NCBI RefSeq assembly: GCF_000620065.1
Contig: NZ_JHVI01000026.1
Coordinates: 1 to 51,956, forward strand
Reading direction: 5' to 3'
Length of the DNA: 51,956 bases
From: Meiothermus cerbereus DSM 11376
Lineage (GTDB): Bacteria; Deinococcota; Deinococci; Deinococcales; Thermaceae
A model generated the notes under the pieces. The model had not been told where the DNA came from and made no database searches. It worked only from the letters and a program-made list of their open reading frames with translations. Positions 41,273-49,205 of this stretch are shown here, piece by piece. Both the position numbers and the translations under genes were made by a program. How positions within the stretch are numbered: position 1 is the first letter of the stretch; each line of letters begins with the position of its first letter.

Positions 41273-43060
41273 TCAGCCGGGCTGGTAGAGTCGAGCCTGC
41301 AAGCCCCAGAGCTCGGCATAGGTTCCGCCTCGCTCGAGCAGGGCCCGGTGGGTTCCCTCCTCCACCAGGCGGCCCTCCCGCAGCACCAGAATCCGGTCGG
41401 CCATCTGCACCGAGGCCAGCCGGTGGGTGATGAGCAGCACCGTCTTGCCCTGGGCCAGCTCTGCAAAGCGTCCGTAGAGGTGGGCTTCCTCTTTGGGGTC
41501 GAGGGAGGCGGTGGGCTCGTCGAGGATCAGAAGCTCCGCCTGACGGAAAAAAGCCCGGACAAGGGCGAGCCGCTGCCACTCCCCTAAAGACAGCTCCGTA
41601 CCCCCGAAAGCTTTGGAGAGAAGAGCCTCGGCACCCAGCCGCCGCAGCAGTTCCGAAGCGCCCCCGGCGCGGGCAGCCTCTTCCAAACGCCCAAGGTCAG
41701 ATTGGTGCTCTAAATCCGCAAGGACAATGTTTTCCCGCAGCGTCAGTGCGTAGCGACCAAAGTCCTGGAACACTGCCGCCACCAGGCGCCACCAGGCCTC
41801 CAGGTCTAATTCCCGCAGGTCTACCCCATCCACCAAAATACGGCCCTGGCTGGGGTCGTAGAAGCGGAGCAGAAGCTTAACCAGTGTGGTTTTACCGGCC
41901 CCGTTCTCCCCCACAATGGCCAACCGCTCCCCCCGACGCATTACAAAGGAGATCCCCTCCAACGCGCGCCGGCCATCTGGGTAGTTAAACCCCACGTTTT
42001 CAAAGCGAATCTCCTCAAAGCCCCGCACCATTCGGCCTGCGTTTGAAGGGGCCAGCGCAGAGGAGCGGGCCAGGAAGCCCTCGAGCCGTTCGAAGTACAG
42101 AAGGCTCTCGTATAGCATGCCCCCGTCCTGCACCAAGCCGTAGAGGTTTTGCTGCAGGCTCCCCACCGACTGTAACAAGAGCACCAGGCTCCCCAGCCCG
42201 CTCGCGCCCGAGAGGGCCTGACGCAGGCCTAGGTACAGCGCTGCCGCCGTGGCCAGAGCGCTGACAAAAACCAAGCCGCTGGCCCCCAGGGCCTGCCGCC
42301 CGCGCGCGCGGCGGAGCTCTTGGTATAGCCGCCCAAAAGCCTCGAGATAGCGCCCACGGAAAAAAGGAAGCAGCCCAAACAGGCGCACCTCCTTGGCCGC
42401 CTCGGGGTTGAGCAAAGTCTCGGCATAGTAGCGCATCCTGCGGGCCTCGGGAGCGCTGAAGAGCACCGCCTCCCACACCCCTTTTTGCAACCTGAAGGTC
42501 AGCAGCGCTTGGGGCAGGGTGGCCAGCAGCAACAACAAGGGGAAAACAGGGGCCAACGTCAGGAGCAAGAGCAGCACCCCGGCCACAGCAATACCCCCAC
42601 GAAAGGCATTGCCGAAAAAAACCAACAGATTGAGCGGCTGATAGGGTGCTTGATCGCGCAGCACCTGAAGCTCATCGTAAAAACCAGCGTCCTCAAAGGG
42701 GGTGAGATCGGGCAGGCCGGCTGCTTTCTCCATCAGCAGTAGGTGTACCCGGGCGGTGAGCTTTTCGTTCACCGAACCCTGTAGGTAGGCCACCCAGGGC
42801 ACCAGCAAAAAGTCGAGGGCAAACAGCAAGGCCAGCCCTAAGAGCGGCCCTAGCAACGCAGTTGTAAAGGCGCCGCTGCCCAACCCATAGGCCAAACCGT
42901 CTACCAAAGCCCGCGTCGCGCTTAACACCCCCACCGGTATCAGGCCGCTTGCGGCAAGGAGGCCCACCAAGAGGGTGGCCTCGAGGGGGGCCGCTCGAAA
43001 AACCTGCCGCAGCGCCGGAACGATTTGGCGTAACAGGGAGCGCCTATGAGCCAGTCGCAA
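41273..43060 (-). CDS. ABC exporter, fused permease-ATPase
   Basis: 595 aa. A six-helix exporter domain (about 20-320) and an ATPase domain: Walker A VGENGAGKTT (about 389-398), Q-loop VFQDFGRY, signature LSLGEWQRLALVRA (about 495-508), Walker B LLILDEPTASLD and switch H in ITHR. The signature reads LSLGE in place of LSGGQ; the GEWQR variant is common in exporters of bacteriocins and other modified peptides. No peptidase domain is fused. It overlaps the preceding 183-aa gene by 17 bases, so both are one unit. A peptide substrate is inferred from the neighbours. Confidence 0.82.
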   Translation of the reverse strand: MRLAHRRSLLRQIVPALRQVFRAAPLEATLLVGLLAASGLIPVGVLSATRALVDGLAYGLGSGAFTTALLGPLLGLALLFALDFLLVPWVAYLQGSVNEKLTARVHLLLMEKAAGLPDLTPFEDAGFYDELQVLRDQAPYQPLNLLVFFGNAFRGGIAVAGVLLLLLTLAPVFPLLLLLATLPQALLTFRLQKGVWEAVLFSAPEARRMRYYAETLLNPEAAKEVRLFGLLPFFRGRYLEAFGRLYQELRRARGRQALGASGLVFVSALATAAALYLGLRQALSGASGLGSLVLLLQSVGSLQQNLYGLVQDGGMLYESLLYFERLEGFLARSSALAPSNAGRMVRGFEEIRFENVGFNYPDGRRALEGISFVMRRGERLAIVGENGAGKTTLVKLLLRFYDPSQGRILVDGVDLRELDLEAWWRLVAAVFQDFGRYALTLRENIVLADLEHQSDLGRLEEAARAGGASELLRRLGAEALLSKAFGGTELSLGEWQRLALVRAFFRQAELLILDEPTASLDPKEEAHLYGRFAELAQGKTVLLITHRLASVQMADRILVLREGRLVEEGTHRALLERGGTYAELWGLQARLYQPG

Positions 43061-43595
43061 CCACCTCCCGGTTTGCCTCTCTAGCCCAACGCCCAGGGTT
43101 TATGTAGTTTGAGGCAATATGGGCCCACTCTTCAGAGGTAATCGGGCAAACTTCCTCGACAATATACCTTTTCCGCATGGGCTTTGCGGAGTCGTGACGC
43201 AGGATTGCCTTATGCCCCTCAGGAACCTCTACTATCACGAAAGATTCACCTTCTTCATCCCACTCCCAAATCGGTACCCTGCCTGCCAAGGCATAAAAGG
43301 CACCCCTGTTCTCATCAAGATTTCGAGCATGCATGCTTGACGGACAAAGCCAACAAGACGTGCGGTATTTCCCGCAAGCCACTACCTCGAGGGGTCGAAC
43401 GTAGTAGCGAAACTTGTACACTTCACCAAAGAAGATCAAAGAAGGCTGCTCAAATGGATGAGCAATGTTGCCCCCTTGTGGATCAAGGACGTAGGCAAGT
43501 TCCGAGCTAGGTTCTAGACGAACAACCAGACCAAAATCGTCCCGCACTTCAACCCAACCGTTCAAAGTTCTGAGCTGGTCTCCGACGCTCAGCAC
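43044..43595 (-). CDS. Unknown 183-aa protein in peptide-export unit
   Basis: I do not recognise this family. It starts at GTG 43593-43595, six bases after the stop of a 29-codon ORF, and overlaps the ABC exporter gene by 17 bases. The protein is beta-rich at the N-terminus (GWVEVRDDFGLVVRLEP). A CWLCPSSMHARN segment (C-x2-C, about residues 82-93) could bind metal or form a disulfide. The C-terminal half is charged with several Trp residues (IWEWDEEGESF). No signal peptide or membrane helix. Base composition is lower in GC than the core genes. Its place suggests a processing, immunity or peptide-binding role for an exported peptide. Confidence 0.6.
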   Translation of the reverse strand: MLSVGDQLRTLNGWVEVRDDFGLVVRLEPSSELAYVLDPQGGNIAHPFEQPSLIFFGEVYKFRYYVRPLEVVACGKYRTSCWLCPSSMHARNLDENRGAFYALAGRVPIWEWDEEGESFVIVEVPEGHKAILRHDSAKPMRKRYIVEEVCPITSEEWAHIASNYINPGRWAREANREVVATGS

Positions 43596-43691: not shown

Positions 43692-43754
43692 GGCCGTAAA
43701 CCCCCTTTCACTTTTAGCCTGTACTAAAGGCACTTTCACCCTAGCACCCCCCAC

Positions 43755-43827
43755 GTAACCAAACCCCCTCTCAGAATGGTTACGTTCTTAACTCATTTTG
43801 GTTACCTTCCCTCTCATATTGGTTACC
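43755..43827. promoter_or_regulatory. GGTTAC site array, copy 1
   Basis: TGGTTACG at 43777 and TGGTTACC at 43799 and 43820 are direct repeats 22 and 21 bp apart, plus an inverted GTAACC at 43755-43760. Sites two helical turns apart on one face of DNA are typical of cooperative activator binding. The array lies between the plus-strand peptide gene (43850) and the minus-strand unit starting at 43691, where TAGGGT (43738-43743) is a candidate -10 box. Confidence 0.6.
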
Positions 43828-43849
43828 TTGCCCTTGCAAGGATGGAGGT

Positions 43850-43990
43850 ATGCGCAGGGTGAGGTGGTTTTTGTTGTTGCTGATTCTGCTGGCTTTGGGT
43901 TGGAAGGAGTTGGGCTACGCCTGCACCCGCCCCGACTGTGTTCCACCGGGGGTGGTGCGCTCGGGGGAGGCTAGCGGTACTGGGCGCTGA
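43850..43990 (+). CDS. Small secreted two-cysteine peptide, copy 1
   Basis: 46 aa: a basic start (MRRVRW), a hydrophobic core (FLLLLILLALGW), then KELGYA and CTRPDCVPPGVVRSGEASG with Cys at 25 and 30. Cleavage after GYA (Gly at -3, Ala at -1) would release a 22-residue peptide beginning with Cys. AAGGA stands seven bases before the ATG. The second copy differs at only two residues (Leu10 to Ser, Val35 to Ala), so the frame is kept. It may be a pheromone-like signal or a bacteriocin. No known family recognised. Confidence 0.6.
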   Translation: MRRVRWFLLLLILLALGWKELGYACTRPDCVPPGVVRSGEASGTGR

Positions 43991-44010
43991 GCCGCCGCAC
44001 CCAGGCCCGC

Positions 44011-44184
44011 AAAGCGGTGGCGATGCTCAACCACCTTTTGCTTGCGTTACGAGCCTTTCTGAGGTTGGAGCTGTATCGGTTGAAGACGGGAGTGAGCTGG
44101 TATGAGGCCAAGACCGCGATAGTTCGCGACGCCATCCGAACCTACCTGGCTCGTCCTATCTATGAGCTTGTCTCAACTGCGTAA
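44011..44184 (+). pseudogene. IS4/IS701-like transposase C-terminal fragment
   Basis: 57 codons, open from the junction with the direct repeat, ending in TAA: VAMLNHLLLALRAFLRLELY, then TGVSWYEAKTAIVRDAIRTYLARPIYE. This is the helical tail of an IS4-superfamily transposase. No N-terminal part is present. It marks the recombination point where copy 1 of the direct repeat ends. The remaining bases to 44297 hold only a 28-codon minus-strand frame that I could not support as a gene. Confidence 0.7.
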
Positions 44185-44297: not shown

Positions 44298-45068
44298 TTA
44301 GTGGGTTCCCAGCGTGCCTTGTCGCCGCGCGCTGCGGAGCGCACGTCGAAAGAATACAAGCCCCAGCACCAGGTACGCCAGGGCGTTGACCCCCGACAGC
44401 ACCAAGAGGCTCCACTCGGGAACCTGCTCCCGCCCAAGGATGAGGCGCAAGGCACCCACGGAGGGGGTTAGGGGCAGGAGGTAGCCGAGGTCGCCCCAGG
44501 GCCGGGCCAGGGCTTCGAAGCGGATGAGGAAAAGACCCAACAGAGGGAACTGCAAGATGCTGATGAGCTGGCCCAGCCGCTTATAGATCAAAGCCAGACC
44601 GCCTAGCAGAAGCCCCAGCCCCAGCGCGCCCAAGGCCAAGGTCAACAGCGGTAACAGAATGAGCCAATCGAAGTCCAGCCGGGCTCCCGAGACGAGGGTG
44701 ACAGCCAGGAAAAGCGGGATGTTCAAAAGGCCCATCTGCAGCAAGGAGAGTGCAGATCGCGTCAAGACCACACCCAACAGGCCAGGGCGGGTGAGGGCCA
44801 GCTGCTCCAGGATGCCGGACAAAGCCTCCTCTGCCAGGGTGGAGGCGATATGGGAGAGAAGGGAGAGGGCCAAAGTCCAGGCCAGGAGGCTCACCACCAG
44901 GGTCTCCAGGCGATCTCCGAAAAAGGCGGGGCCGGCCAGGTAACGGGCCCCGTAAATAAAGAGGGTGAAGACCATCAGCACGCCCAGAAAGCCCCCAAGT
45001 AATTCCATCGGATAGCGACTAAGAGCCTTCAAGAAGCGCCAGAGCTCTATGTAGACCCACTGGAGCAC
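44298..45068 (-). CDS. ABC-2 type exporter permease
   Basis: 256 aa with six hydrophobic segments in the ABC-2 arrangement: a cytoplasmic start MLQWVYIELWRFLKALSRYP and a final helix in VLSGVNALAYLVLGLVFFRRAL. The middle region LAEEALSGILEQLALTRPGLLGVVLTRS is the coupling segment that contacts the ATPase. It overlaps the ATPase gene by 22 bases. This type of two-protein exporter often gives self-protection against, or release of, peptides. It is the last gene of the unit starting with the 83-aa peptide. Confidence 0.83.
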   Translation of the reverse strand: MLQWVYIELWRFLKALSRYPMELLGGFLGVLMVFTLFIYGARYLAGPAFFGDRLETLVVSLLAWTLALSLLSHIASTLAEEALSGILEQLALTRPGLLGVVLTRSALSLLQMGLLNIPLFLAVTLVSGARLDFDWLILLPLLTLALGALGLGLLLGGLALIYKRLGQLISILQFPLLGLFLIRFEALARPWGDLGYLLPLTPSVGALRLILGREQVPEWSLLVLSGVNALAYLVLGLVFFRRALRSARRQGTLGTH

Positions 45069-46000
45069 GGCTTCCTCCTCTCCCTGAGTACGCGCCAGAA
45101 AAGCCCTGCTAGGGATAGGCTCTCTCGCTCCACCCGGTCAATGGGCAAGGGGTCCAGGACTCTGAGGACCTCCCAAAGGGTTTCTTCACCCACGATCCGA
45201 ACCACCCTTCCCTCCACTTCGGCCCCCAGGGCTTGCAGCCGCCCCAGGCGCAAATCGCCCTCGTCTAGGAGGAGTGCCAGCTCTATGCGGTAGACCGCCC
45301 GTGGGGAGCCTTGCAGCACCTTTTGGGTCTCTCCCTCCAAGGCCACCTCTCCCTCCAGGAGGATGGCCACCCGGTTGGCCACCGCCTCGGCCAGATCGAG
45401 CTGGTGGGTCGTGAGGAGGATCGCCTTGCCGTCTATTCCCAGCTTTAGAAGCCAGGAGCGTATGGCCTCCTGAGCCTCGAGGTCCACCCCCAGGGTGGGT
45501 TCATCCAGGAAGAGAACGGGGGGGTCGTGCACCAGCGCAGCAGCCAGGGCGACCCGCTGCTGCTGGCCTCGAGAGAGGGTGCCTACGGTCTGGTGGGCTT
45601 TATTCTGCAGACCGATCACCTCCAGGAGTTCCAGGCCCCTCCGCCGGGCCTCTTTGGGGGCGACGCCGCGCAGGGTGCCGAAGTAGATGAGGTTCTCCAG
45701 GGCGGAAAGGCGCCAATACAGGTTGCGGTTACCCTCCAGCACCGCTCCCAACCAGGTTCCCTGGCCTTCCCGCAAAAGCTCCACCCTCCCCTCGTCGGGC
45801 TCTACCAAGCCCGCCAAGATTTTGACCAGGGTGGTCTTTCCGGCTCCGTTGGGTCCCAGAAGGGTTAGGATTTCCCCCTGACGGAGTTCCAGGTCGACCC
45901 CCTTCAGGGCCTCGATCCAGCTCTTTCCCTGAGGGTAGCGCTTGCGCAGGCCGCGGGCCCATAGGGCTGGGCTAGGGGAGGACCGTACGCTCGGGTGCAT
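45047..46000 (-). CDS. ABC-2 exporter ATP-binding protein
   Basis: 317 aa. Walker A LGPNGAGKTTL (about 48-58), signature reading LSRGQQQRVALAAAL (LSRGQ in place of LSGGQ, about 142), Walker B VLFLDEPTLGVD and the switch histidine in LTTHQLD. The C-terminal 100 residues form the accessory domain usual in CcmA/DrrA-like ATPases. Seven bases separate it from the M29-like gene. It drives the adjacent permease, probably for a peptide or for resistance to it. Confidence 0.87.
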   Translation of the reverse strand: MHPSVRSSPSPALWARGLRKRYPQGKSWIEALKGVDLELRQGEILTLLGPNGAGKTTLVKILAGLVEPDEGRVELLREGQGTWLGAVLEGNRNLYWRLSALENLIYFGTLRGVAPKEARRRGLELLEVIGLQNKAHQTVGTLSRGQQQRVALAAALVHDPPVLFLDEPTLGVDLEAQEAIRSWLLKLGIDGKAILLTTHQLDLAEAVANRVAILLEGEVALEGETQKVLQGSPRAVYRIELALLLDEGDLRLGRLQALGAEVEGRVVRIVGEETLWEVLRVLDPLPIDRVERESLSLAGLFWRVLRERRKPCSSGST

Positions 46001-46007
46001 AAGCAGC

Positions 46008-46988
46008 TCACGCGACGAGGACGTCCTTCATGCCTGGGCATATGAAATCTATGTGGGCGCCTGTAACCCCGTCACCTACGGCGAAGTGGACACCGCGGGC
46101 GCCCTCATTGAGAACAGAGTTCACGCTCCAGTCGAGTTCCGAAGCCTCTAGACCAGGATTGTTGCTGATTGCCATCTCCACCAACATAAGTTCAAGCTGA
46201 GGATTGGAGAGTTCCGCTATTTCATCTGTTAAATTTGTTCCATCCGAAGATCGTACCTGTTTCACTTGAGAATTCTCAATTGTGACGCTCAGTGGGAATC
46301 TTCCATCCCTGACGAGTCCACCCAACAACTCCCATGCTCTTTTTGGAAGAATAGTGAGTGGCTCGGGCATGATTCTATGGTGTGCAATGGCGACCCCTGG
46401 AACCGTCACTTCGCCATTTACCAAAAAGCCGGGATGGAAGAAATCTTCATTATCTGGGATCATCGCTATTTCGAAGAACATACCTATAGCTTCCCACTCA
46501 CCTGGTAGCAAGCCTGCTTGTGTGCGAGGCAGCATGAGGTCTAATCCTTCCTTAAGGATAACCTCTAGCTCACCGTACATCCCCTTGAAGACAAGGCGCT
46601 TGATGTCACTGTTCTCCAAGACAGAAACCCACCTATTGTTTTCCTTAGTGGCCGCAGCGAAATCTGAAGAGGCAATCAATTTGACTGTATATTTAGCTGC
46701 CTCAAAAGAAGGATCAAAAGCAACCAGAGGCACAATAAGAACTCGGCTACTTTTGAAAAAGCGCTCTAGCTTGAAGAAAGAGAGGCCGTTGCCGGTAGTG
46801 GGCAAGAGAACTATGTTCTTGCGCCGATGTTTTGGTAAGTCGGCAACTTCATCCAGGAGGAAGGCTCCTATAGCGTGACTTTTCAGCCAGGAAGCAATGT
46901 CGATGGAGTCCGTGACTAGAAGGGGTTTAGCAGAGCCGAAAACGTGGGCCAAAGCCTGTTCTAGTTTGACCTTCAATCCTTGTTCCAT
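46008..46988 (-). CDS. M29 aminopeptidase-like protein, shortened
   Basis: 326 aa. The C-terminal half follows aminopeptidase T/M29: a NGEVTVPG strand (Glu193), SVTIENSQVKQVRSSDG, LVEMAISNNPG (Glu271), GVHFAVGDG (His301), and GAHIDFICPG (His312, Asp314). The metal-ligand order and spacing fit. But the stretch between His301 and His312 is about 20 residues shorter than in known M29 enzymes (about 410 aa), so the region expected to hold the catalytic tyrosine is missing. It may trim the 83-aa peptide, or be an inactive peptide-binding version. AGGAGG five bases upstream supports ATG 46988. GC content is lower than in core genes. Confidence 0.5.
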   Translation of the reverse strand: MEQGLKVKLEQALAHVFGSAKPLLVTDSIDIASWLKSHAIGAFLLDEVADLPKHRRKNIVLLPTTGNGLSFFKLERFFKSSRVLIVPLVAFDPSFEAAKYTVKLIASSDFAAATKENNRWVSVLENSDIKRLVFKGMYGELEVILKEGLDLMLPRTQAGLLPGEWEAIGMFFEIAMIPDNEDFFHPGFLVNGEVTVPGVAIAHHRIMPEPLTILPKRAWELLGGLVRDGRFPLSVTIENSQVKQVRSSDGTNLTDEIAELSNPQLELMLVEMAISNNPGLEASELDWSVNSVLNEGARGVHFAVGDGVTGAHIDFICPGMKDVLVA

Positions 46989-47050
46989 CACTGCCTCCTA
47001 GGATGGGACTGCAGCCGCAACACCGCAACAATAGAGCCTTATCTAAATCC

Positions 47051-47302
47051 TTAGATCCCAGCCGTACAAGGGCAGCTCACCAGGGGGGCACGGGGAGAGC
47101 CTACACCATTGGCCTGCGAAAGCCACTTGTAACTGACCGTGTAGCCGTAACCAAAAACGCCCACTATAGGCTTGTTTGAAGGTGCCTCTCCAACACTGCA
47201 AAGTGGATCGGAATAAGGCCTTGAGGTCTTCGTGTGGTGGCCCTCTGCGACGAACCTAAGCAAACGTGGGGCATTTAGCTTGAGCTCCAAAGTTTTCTCC
47301 AT
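47051..47302 (-). CDS. 83-aa cysteine-containing peptide, candidate RiPP precursor
   Basis: The first gene of the minus-strand unit, starting at ATG 47300-47302 with AGAGAGG eight bases upstream. The N-terminal third is charged and helical (MEKTLELKLNAPRLLRFVAEG), like a leader. The C-terminal part is Gly-, Tyr- and Ser-rich (VGVFGYGYTVSYKWL) and ends PLVSCPCTAGI with a CPC pair. No signal peptide. It is followed by an M29-like protein and an ABC-2 exporter, an arrangement that suggests a ribosomally made, processed and exported peptide. No known precursor family was recognised. Confidence 0.5.
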   Translation of the reverse strand: MEKTLELKLNAPRLLRFVAEGHHTKTSRPYSDPLCSVGEAPSNKPIVGVFGYGYTVSYKWLSQANGVGSPRAPLVSCPCTAGI

Positions 47303-47346: not shown

Positions 47347-47364
47347 ATGCTTAGCATCCTTCAC

Positions 47365-47457
47365 GTAACCAAACCCCCTCTCAGAATGGTTACGTTCTTA
47401 ACTCATTTTGGTTACCTTCCCTCTCATATTGGTTACCTTTTGACGGTTTTGGTTACC
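47365..47457. promoter_or_regulatory. GGTTAC site array, copy 2
   Basis: An inverted GTAACC at 47365-47370 is followed by TGGTTACG at 47387 and TGGTTACC at 47409, 47430 and 47450. Spacing is 22, 21 and 20 bp. BTAD/SARP activators bind direct repeats near -35 positions, and such a regulator is encoded next door, so these are its likely sites. They lie between divergent peptide units. Confidence 0.6.
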
Positions 47458-47479
47458 TTGCCCTTGCAAGGATGGAGGT

Positions 47480-47620
47480 ATGCGCAGGGTGAGATGGTTT
47501 TTGTTGTCGCTGATTCTGCTGGCTTTGGGTTGGAAGGAGTTGGGCTACGCCTGCACCCGCCCCGACTGTGTTCCACCGGGGGCGGTGCGCTCGGGGGAGG
47601 CTAGCGGTACTGGGCGCTGA
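47480..47620 (+). CDS. Small secreted two-cysteine peptide, copy 2
   Basis: 46 aa, differing from copy 1 only at Ser10 and Ala35. Same signal-like segment and predicted mature 22-mer (CTRPDCVPPGAVRSGEASG, then TGR). AAGGA is seven bases upstream of the ATG. Its last 20 bases overlap, tail to tail, the end of the TPR/BTAD regulator gene. A short exported peptide beside a TPR regulator recalls the peptide/receptor gene pairs of RRNPP quorum-sensing systems, although the regulator family here is different. Confidence 0.6.
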   Translation: MRRVRWFLLSLILLALGWKELGYACTRPDCVPPGAVRSGEASGTGR

Positions 47621-49205
47621 GCCGCCGCACCCAGGCCCGCACCGCAGGATGGCGGGGGTCTTGCGGGGACAGGCGATGTAGGAGGGCCTCCCAGAGGGTA
47701 AGGTCGTCCGGGATTTGCTGGGCCAGGCGGTAGAGCAGCTCGAGGTCGGGGTGTTGCAGCACGGCCTCTTTGAGCTGCTCTTCGATGCGGTGGCGCAAAA
47801 GCTCGATGCCCGGGGCCTGGCTTCTGGGCAGGAGGGGGCCCTGGTAGAGGTTGAGGGCCTCGGAGAGCCGGTTTTGTTCCAGGGCTTCCTGGAGCTTGAG
47901 GAAGTCGGCCCCGATGGGGCTAAGGAGCCGGTAGGGGCGGCTCTGCACTTCCAGGCCCTGCTGGCGCAGGCGGCAGAGCTCGCTCCGGAGGGCCTGGGGG
48001 TTGGGCGTGGGGTAGAGCGCCTGGGCCAGCTTCTCCCCTTCGATCCCCTCAGGGTGGGCCAGCAGCAGGGTGATGAGTTCCAGGCTGCGGGGCCTTAGGG
48101 CAGGGTAGCCCTGGAGTTGGGCTTTGCCCAGGGTTTGCAGGTAGGGGGCGGCCTGGGTAAGCGGGAGTTCCGCCGGCAGGAAGAGGGCCCGGGCCTCGGG
48201 GCGGAGGGCCTGGGCCAGGCGGCGGTAGGGCTCGGGAAGGGGCTCCCCGTTGAGTGCACAGAGGTGGGCCACCGCCCGCAGGGCCTCCTCCGCCCCCTCG
48301 GCTTCCAGGGTGGGGAGGCTCTCCTTCAGAAGGGGGCGGGCCTCGGGCGCTGGGTAGCGGTAGAGCCCTTCGGCCAGCAAGAGCAGGGCCTGGGGCAGGG
48401 CTTGGCTGGAAGGCTGGGCTTTGGCCGCCCGCAGTCGGCGGGCCACGAGCGTCTGTTGGGAGGAATGGCCTTTGCAGAGCCGCACCAGGAGGGGCAGGTC
48501 GTAGGCCAGCAGGTGGGGGTTTGGGTTATGTTCCCAGAGGGTCTGCAGCAGTTCCGGGCTGGCCTCCCCCTGCATCCCCTGCAGCAGCAGGCTGAGCCAG
48601 AGGGCGTAGTAGCGCACCCCCGGGGACGGATGGGCCAGCAGCGGGGGGAGGGTCTGCGCCAGCGCAGCGAGGGGCTCCTCTCCGGCGTAGGCCAGCAGGG
48701 TGAGCTCCTCCAGGCGGTAGTAGGGCTGCCCGGGGGCCAGGAGGGCGGCCAGGCTGGCGTAGGAAAGAGCCTCCGCAAAGCGCCCCAGTCCCCGCAGGGT
48801 GTGGGCCAGGGCATAGGCCAGGCGAGCCTGCTCCTCGGCGGGGGCGCCCTGGGCTTGTAGCTGCTGGAAGGCTTCTCGCAGGGCCAGCAGGCCATCGGCG
48901 GGCGGGAGCGAGAGGCCCAGGTGGTAGAGCGTCAGGGGGGTCTGGGCCGCCTGGGCGGCGGCCAGGGCCAGGCGGCGGTAGGCGGCGTGGTCGCCCTGCC
49001 GGAAGGCGGCGAAGCCCAGGAGGGCCAGGCGTTCGGCGCTTTCTGTCTCCTCCCGCGGCGGCCAGGCCTCCAGCAGGGCTGCGGCCTCGGCAGGCTTTCC
49101 CAGGGCCAGCAGGGCCAGCGCGGCGGTCTTGGGCTCGCCCTGCTGCTGGGCCAGGGCCAGGGCCTCGGCGTAGTGGCCCCGATGGTAGAGGGCCAGGGCG
49201 TCCAT
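47601..49205 (-). CDS. TPR regulator with C-terminal winged helix and BTAD-like domain
   Basis: 534 aa. Residues 1 to about 340 are tandem TPR-like helical hairpins (ALYHRGHYAEALALAQQQGE; KTAALALLALGKPAEAAALLEAW; RFAEALSYASLAALL). About 366-430 is an OmpR/SARP-like winged helix (LRPRSLELITLLLAHPEGI... LRSELCRLRQQGLEV...YRLLSP). About 432-490 is BTAD-like (DFLKLQEALEQNRLSEALNLYQGPLLP), with a short helical end. In Streptomyces SARPs the DNA-binding domain is N-terminal; here it follows the TPR domain. The start is fixed by TATACT ending six bases before ATG 49205. It is convergent with, and overlaps, the small peptide gene. Confidence 0.8.
   Translation of the reverse strand: MDALALYHRGHYAEALALAQQQGEPKTAALALLALGKPAEAAALLEAWPPREETESAERLALLGFAAFRQGDHAAYRRLALAAAQAAQTPLTLYHLGLSLPPADGLLALREAFQQLQAQGAPAEEQARLAYALAHTLRGLGRFAEALSYASLAALLAPGQPYYRLEELTLLAYAGEEPLAALAQTLPPLLAHPSPGVRYYALWLSLLLQGMQGEASPELLQTLWEHNPNPHLLAYDLPLLVRLCKGHSSQQTLVARRLRAAKAQPSSQALPQALLLLAEGLYRYPAPEARPLLKESLPTLEAEGAEEALRAVAHLCALNGEPLPEPYRRLAQALRPEARALFLPAELPLTQAAPYLQTLGKAQLQGYPALRPRSLELITLLLAHPEGIEGEKLAQALYPTPNPQALRSELCRLRQQGLEVQSRPYRLLSPIGADFLKLQEALEQNRLSEALNLYQGPLLPRSQAPGIELLRHRIEEQLKEAVLQHPDLELLYRLAQQIPDDLTLWEALLHRLSPQDPRHPAVRAWVRRLSAQYR

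Follow-up and report, generated by a model that had tools for sequence, protein, structure and literature searches.

The 51,956-nucleotide stretch of Meiothermus cerbereus DSM 11376 analysed here (contig NZ_JHVI01000026.1; hereafter the window) carries what is quite likely a compact RiPP cassette organised around a protein of the CgnB family; its product is probably a new modified peptide of Thermaceae, made without the oxidising enzyme of the crocagin pathway. The general RiPP arrangement is present, namely a short precursor gene linked to a protein of the precursor-binding type and to an exporter. As judged from sequence comparison, a RiPP function is well supported because the peptide has a CgnB-family partner, is linked to it, and shares its genomic site with other peptide cargo in related genomes.

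By reading of open reading frames, the minus strand carries one tight operon consisting of an 83-aa precursor-like peptide (47051..47302), a 326-aa protein (46008..46988), and the ATPase (45047..46000) and permease (44298..45068) of an ABC-2 type exporter, with intergenic gaps of 62, 7 and -22 bases in that order. An earlier note on this DNA had described a peptide, an M29-like protein and an ABC-2 exporter on one strand beside a GGTTAC array, and all of these parts were found again. Clear ribosome binding sites accompany the peptide gene (its ATG at 47302 is preceded by AGAGGTGAT) and the gene for the 326-aa protein (AGGAGG upstream). Pfam and NCBIfam named only the exporter genes: the ATPase matched PF00005 (E=2e-28), with drrA as its top NCBIfam match below the cut-off, and the permease matched PF12698 at E=5.2e-5, under the gathering score (22.9 of 31.6 bits). 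Neither the peptide nor the 326-aa protein had a Pfam match at E<=1, and the single NCBIfam match of the latter fell far under its cut-off (10.8 vs 342 bits). No dioxygenase or other known RiPP enzyme was recognised in the cassette when the window genes were searched with these two collections, in agreement with the absence of a classical RiPP enzyme asserted before.

For the 326-aa protein, the CgnB/CgnE family is a better assignment than the M29 aminopeptidases. A profile built from an alignment of seven homologues found two matches in the PDB at E<=1, CgnB (6zsv, E=7.9e-15) and CgnE (6zsu, E=0.021), both solved for the crocagin pathway (PMC10070186), and no M29 enzyme; the CgnB alignment spans profile positions 24-323 of 325, almost the whole protein. 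Foldseek ranked an AlphaFold2 model of middling confidence (pLDDT 66.7, five sequences) closest to CgnB (1.1e-15) and CgnE (5.3e-14), with weaker matches to the M29 aminopeptidases AmpT and PepS (2.3e-8 and weaker), and VIA-align gave the same model Z scores of 18.4 for CgnB and 18.3 for CgnE (286-288 residues), 11.3 for NicX and at most 9.7 for aminopeptidases. NicX, a 2,5-dihydroxypyridine dioxygenase with a single iron centre, is of the same fold superfamily and scores under CgnB. The zinc ligands reported for CgnB (Glu161, Glu252, Glu274, His280, His291 and Asp293; PMC10070186) correspond to predicted ligands E173, E271, E295, H301, H312 and D314 of the window protein, as mapped by hand on the CgnB profile alignment, where the numbering of the chain differs from that of the paper by 8 throughout, and all six are kept in 7/7 aligned homologues. 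According to the main text of that paper, single-copy homologues keep the zinc ligands, the non-catalytic CgnE has lost two of them and is described as binding without catalysis, and both founding members bind the crocagin precursor (PMC10070186). Because the 326-aa protein belongs to this precursor-binding family, the RiPP reading is strengthened.

M29 aminopeptidases such as AmpT, PepS and AmpS share the fold superfamily and the metal site, but the 326-aa protein has a shorter N-terminal part (326 vs ~400 aa) and the weaker fold match noted above, and Pfam Peptidase_M29 matches none of seven family members, while finding three other proteins in this genome. We therefore discarded a plain M29 aminopeptidase, given the CgnB profile match, the lack of Pfam M29 matches and the three separate M29 proteins. 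Of the 'shortened M29 homologue' in the earlier note, the fold relation stands, through the matches to AmpT and PepS, but the specific assignment does not, the protein being nearer to CgnB/CgnE. The same fold relation, together with the occurrence of the exporter without the other two genes, would also suit chance neighbours, an M29-derived peptidase or housekeeping protein that happens to lie beside a small ORF and a drug exporter; this is highly improbable given a sequence and fold nearer to CgnB than to any aminopeptidase, a genome already supplied with M29 proteins, and linkage at 8/8 loci.

That linkage is seen wherever the family was found. The CgnB-like gene occurs in 5/50 genomes of the family Thermaceae and in 5/111 genomes phylum-wide, and two of 72,556 plasmid records hold it, Thermus thermophilus pAA2-2c, on which the peptide lacks an annotation, and Deinococcus sp. 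QL22. With two copies in one genome (G018), this makes eight loci, hosted by Meiothermus-like genomes, Calidithermus, the Thermus plasmid and the Deinococcus plasmid; a search of genome contigs returned one related locus, apparently the same contig as in genome G004, both being 16,182 bases long. That the M29-like gene never co-occurs with the peptide had been named beforehand as a refuting outcome, and the opposite was observed: the peptide is in the same 5/50 genomes and, with its CPC ending, directly upstream of the CgnB-like gene at all eight loci, at a distance of 3-87 bases (two of the eight peptides, those of the second G018 copy and of Deinococcus, were found by ORF reading and not by peptide search). 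Together with the family membership, this linkage lends sequence-level support to the putative RiPP locus of the earlier note. The ABC pair follows the CgnB-like gene in 7/8 loci, permease after ATPase (in genome G012 it lies on the contig with the second half of the CgnB-like gene); the Deinococcus locus has a methyltransferase-like gene and no ABC pair within 16,957 bases. Two genomes carry a damaged cassette: an IS4/5-type transposase gene splits the ABC ATPase in G016, and the CgnB-like gene of G012 has a frameshift and is interrupted by the end of a contig. The cassette is accessory and partly decaying, because its presence is patchy, these two copies are damaged and the Deinococcus locus is without the ABC pair. 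A phage or viral origin was rejected, as none of 26 candidate stretches in viral contigs was confirmed as a relative and neither phage records nor PHROGs held one. The second G018 cassette is followed by a GNAT acetyltransferase joined to a glyoxalase/bleomycin-resistance domain (L018:10639-11628), a possible self-protection gene.

The peptide ORF, with homologues at every CgnB-like locus, is a real gene as judged from its sequence evolution, because dN (0.17-0.52) is far below dS (0.94-2.63) across 15 pairs drawn from six Thermaceae copies (NG86). Its N-terminal half is basic and is followed by a YTVSYKW stretch and a C-terminal CPCTAGI. In all eight peptides the CPC is followed by only 3-4 further residues, and M1, R13, F17, H23 and the CPC are invariant; a Y-x-[VI]-x-Y-x-W stretch is common to seven, the exception being the Deinococcus peptide, which has no Trp. 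The peptide is basic in 7/7 Thermaceae copies (pI 9.2-9.7) and acidic in Deinococcus (pI 5.1), and the CgnB-like partner is acidic in 7/7 (pI 4.9-5.6). In place of the Y-x-[VI]-x-Y-x-W stretch, the Deinococcus precursor (L022:7650-7946) has three EVKFxYAPE repeats ahead of GCPCGTF, a layout that gives the impression of more than one core.

Upstream of the peptide lies an array of four GGTTAC repeats with a 20-22 base period and one GTAACC at its left end (47365..47456). The pattern GGTTACN{14,16}GGTTAC has 5 matches in the window against 0.02 expected, and 6 in the whole genome, 5 of which are in this locus. A duplicate of about 270 bases flanks the cassette on both sides (43742-44011 and 47352-47641; 97-98% identical) and holds the array, so that a second array copy with three GGTTAC repeats is found at 43755..43826; such a duplication fits insertion of the cassette at the site. 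On visual inspection, the interval 43998-44180 between cassette and left duplicate resembles the terminal part of a transposase gene.

The array probably answers to a 534-aa TPR regulator with a predicted C-terminal winged helix (47601..49205, minus strand), which stands beside the cassette in the genome of the window (G000) and in genomes G012, G016 and G018. Regulator and array precede the cassette in the last three of these; in G004 the array does so, and the regulator gene lies in pieces elsewhere. In AlphaFold2 secondary structure, the order of elements agrees with that of a SARP (AfsR-like winged helix and BTAD); a PDB profile search with the regulator gave no match, and AfsR was not named among the best 50 of 1557 Foldseek matches. 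The idea that the second G018 copy and the Deinococcus copy have a winged-helix regulator in common next to them was also considered and rejected, as no similarity was seen. Behind the array, between cassette and regulator and convergent with the latter, lies a 46-aa ORF on the plus strand (47480..47620, with a further copy at 43850-43990), conserved in 10 copies from 9 genomes, with a signal-like start, the motif ACTRPDCVPPG and a later SGTGR. This putatively secreted peptide and the TPR regulator look like a peptide-pheromone quorum-sensing pair. A peptide with AC....C.PP was also seen at 3/20 further regulator loci, mostly in other genera of the family. Beyond the left duplicate, the minus strand encodes a 183-aa protein (43044..43595), FecR-like by eye and without a Pfam match above cut-off, whose gene comes first after the array in relatives that lack the cassette, and a 595-aa ABC exporter with fused permease and ATPase (41273..43060), which belongs to the site rather than to the cassette.

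Genomes without the CgnB gene have the same regulator and array ahead of other cargo. In G005, G007 and G008 the site holds the 183-aa protein and the large ABC exporter. The G017 site (L064:3892-12116) carries a radical SAM/SPASM protein, PqqD, an S24-like peptidase, exporters and a 43-aa Cys-rich peptide with GCSCSCSGG, probably a sactipeptide- or ranthipeptide-like cluster, and that of G015 (L062:4455-4865) a 136-aa secreted-looking Cys/Gly-rich peptide that includes a Gly run and has the same exporter pair after it. G018 has a second, shortened regulator site with an array (L018:1010-3965) near a radical SAM gene. The small exporter pair occurs without the CgnB gene in three genomes (G005, G007 and G015), and G012 and G005 permeases are 95% identical; because the permease tree mixes CgnB-bearing and CgnB-free genomes, we assign the exporter pair, on phylogenetic grounds, to the site and not to the 83-aa peptide alone. 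The unrelated peptide cargo at the regulator site also bears on whether the product is a secreted metal-binding peptide, for instance for copper or zinc, with Cys-Pro-Cys as ligand and the CgnB-like protein as metal-loading partner. An invariant CPC and a partner with a predicted zinc site would fit this idea, but we consider it very unlikely, given that cargo and a cassette in which no metal-transport or metal-sensing gene was recognised.

For the RiPP cassette, these data suggest a working model in which the acidic CgnB-like protein would bind the 83-aa precursor at its basic N-terminal part, in keeping with their opposite charges and linkage, and would then present or chemically alter the conserved aromatic/CPC C-terminal part. 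An unlinked protease would remove the leader, and the ABC pair would export the product or protect the producer. The adjacent TPR regulator probably switches on expression through the GGTTAC array, and the site may be a place where strains exchange peptide cargos.

The nearest known system, as described in the main text of the crocagin study (Chondromyces crocatus; PMC10070186), shares with the cassette a CgnB-family protein with intact dinuclear metal ligands (predicted here), a basic precursor set against an acidic partner, as in CgnA/CgnB, aromatic residues in the precursor, and transport genes nearby. It differs in having two CgnB-type copies where the cassette has one, in a precursor of 21 aa ending in IYW where ours has 83 aa and ends in CPCxxGI, and in CgnC dioxygenase, CgnD, CgnL and CgnI, none of which was recognised here. 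In crocagin biosynthesis CgnB works only together with CgnC, and the authors think that CgnB catalyses (PMC10070186). No CgnC candidate was recognised among the genes around the other copies either (annotations and ORF lists, partly judged by eye). Because no CgnC-type enzyme was recognised in the cassette, the CgnB-like protein may act alone, with an unlinked enzyme, or as a chaperone only. A more speculative reading, less likely than not, is that no other dedicated enzyme modifies the precursor and that the CgnB homologue itself brings about a cyclisation or another change in the aromatic and Cys-Pro-Cys part; equally speculative is the corollary of a RiPP class with an aminopeptidase-descended zinc protein and no oxygenase, radical SAM enzyme, YcaO or lanthionine synthetase.

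A cassette without an oxidising or cyclising enzyme would also suit an otherwise unmodified bacteriocin or signal that the CgnB-like protein keeps soluble or inactive until export, in the way that its homologue CgnE is described as binding without catalysis (PMC10070186), the mature peptide then having at most one disulfide at CPC. We regard this as possible without thinking it probable, since all zinc ligands are kept in 7/7 homologues, whereas the non-catalytic CgnE lost two. Alternatively, the CgnB-like protein might recruit an unlinked CgnC-type dioxygenase for crocagin-like hydroxylation of Tyr/Trp in the YxVxYxW stretch. The Tyr and Trp conserved in 7/8 peptides are indeed the residues changed in crocagin (PMC10070186), but no candidate enzyme was found in the neighbourhoods examined, the Tyr-Trp pair is internal rather than C-terminal and the Deinococcus peptide has no Trp, which leaves this route doubtful. 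The confidences in these two alternatives overlap with that in the RiPP cassette because both are forms of it. Counted against the RiPP cassette reading itself are the lack of an enzyme of known RiPP chemistry and of an Ile-Tyr-Trp end, the acidic Deinococcus peptide, the CgnB-free exporters, the damaged copies and the middling AlphaFold2 model.

We found no published description of the cassette, and later literature mentioning crocagin, judged mostly by title and the start of the abstract, showed none; it may already be listed among the mined precursors in the supplementary material of PMC10070186. That study reports homologues from some 100 genomes, spread over Actinobacteria, Cyanobacteria and three classes of Proteobacteria, and its main text does not name Deinococcota or contain the words Thermus, Meiothermus or Deinococc (PMC10070186). 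Through the cassette, the CgnB family now reaches this phylum and is connected with a site of peptide-cargo exchange that has a regulator of its own. A cassette that has a single intact CgnB homologue, and in which no dioxygenase was recognised, gives direct access to the question of CgnB chemistry, in a heat-stable setting that lends itself to crystallising the CgnB-like protein together with its peptide.
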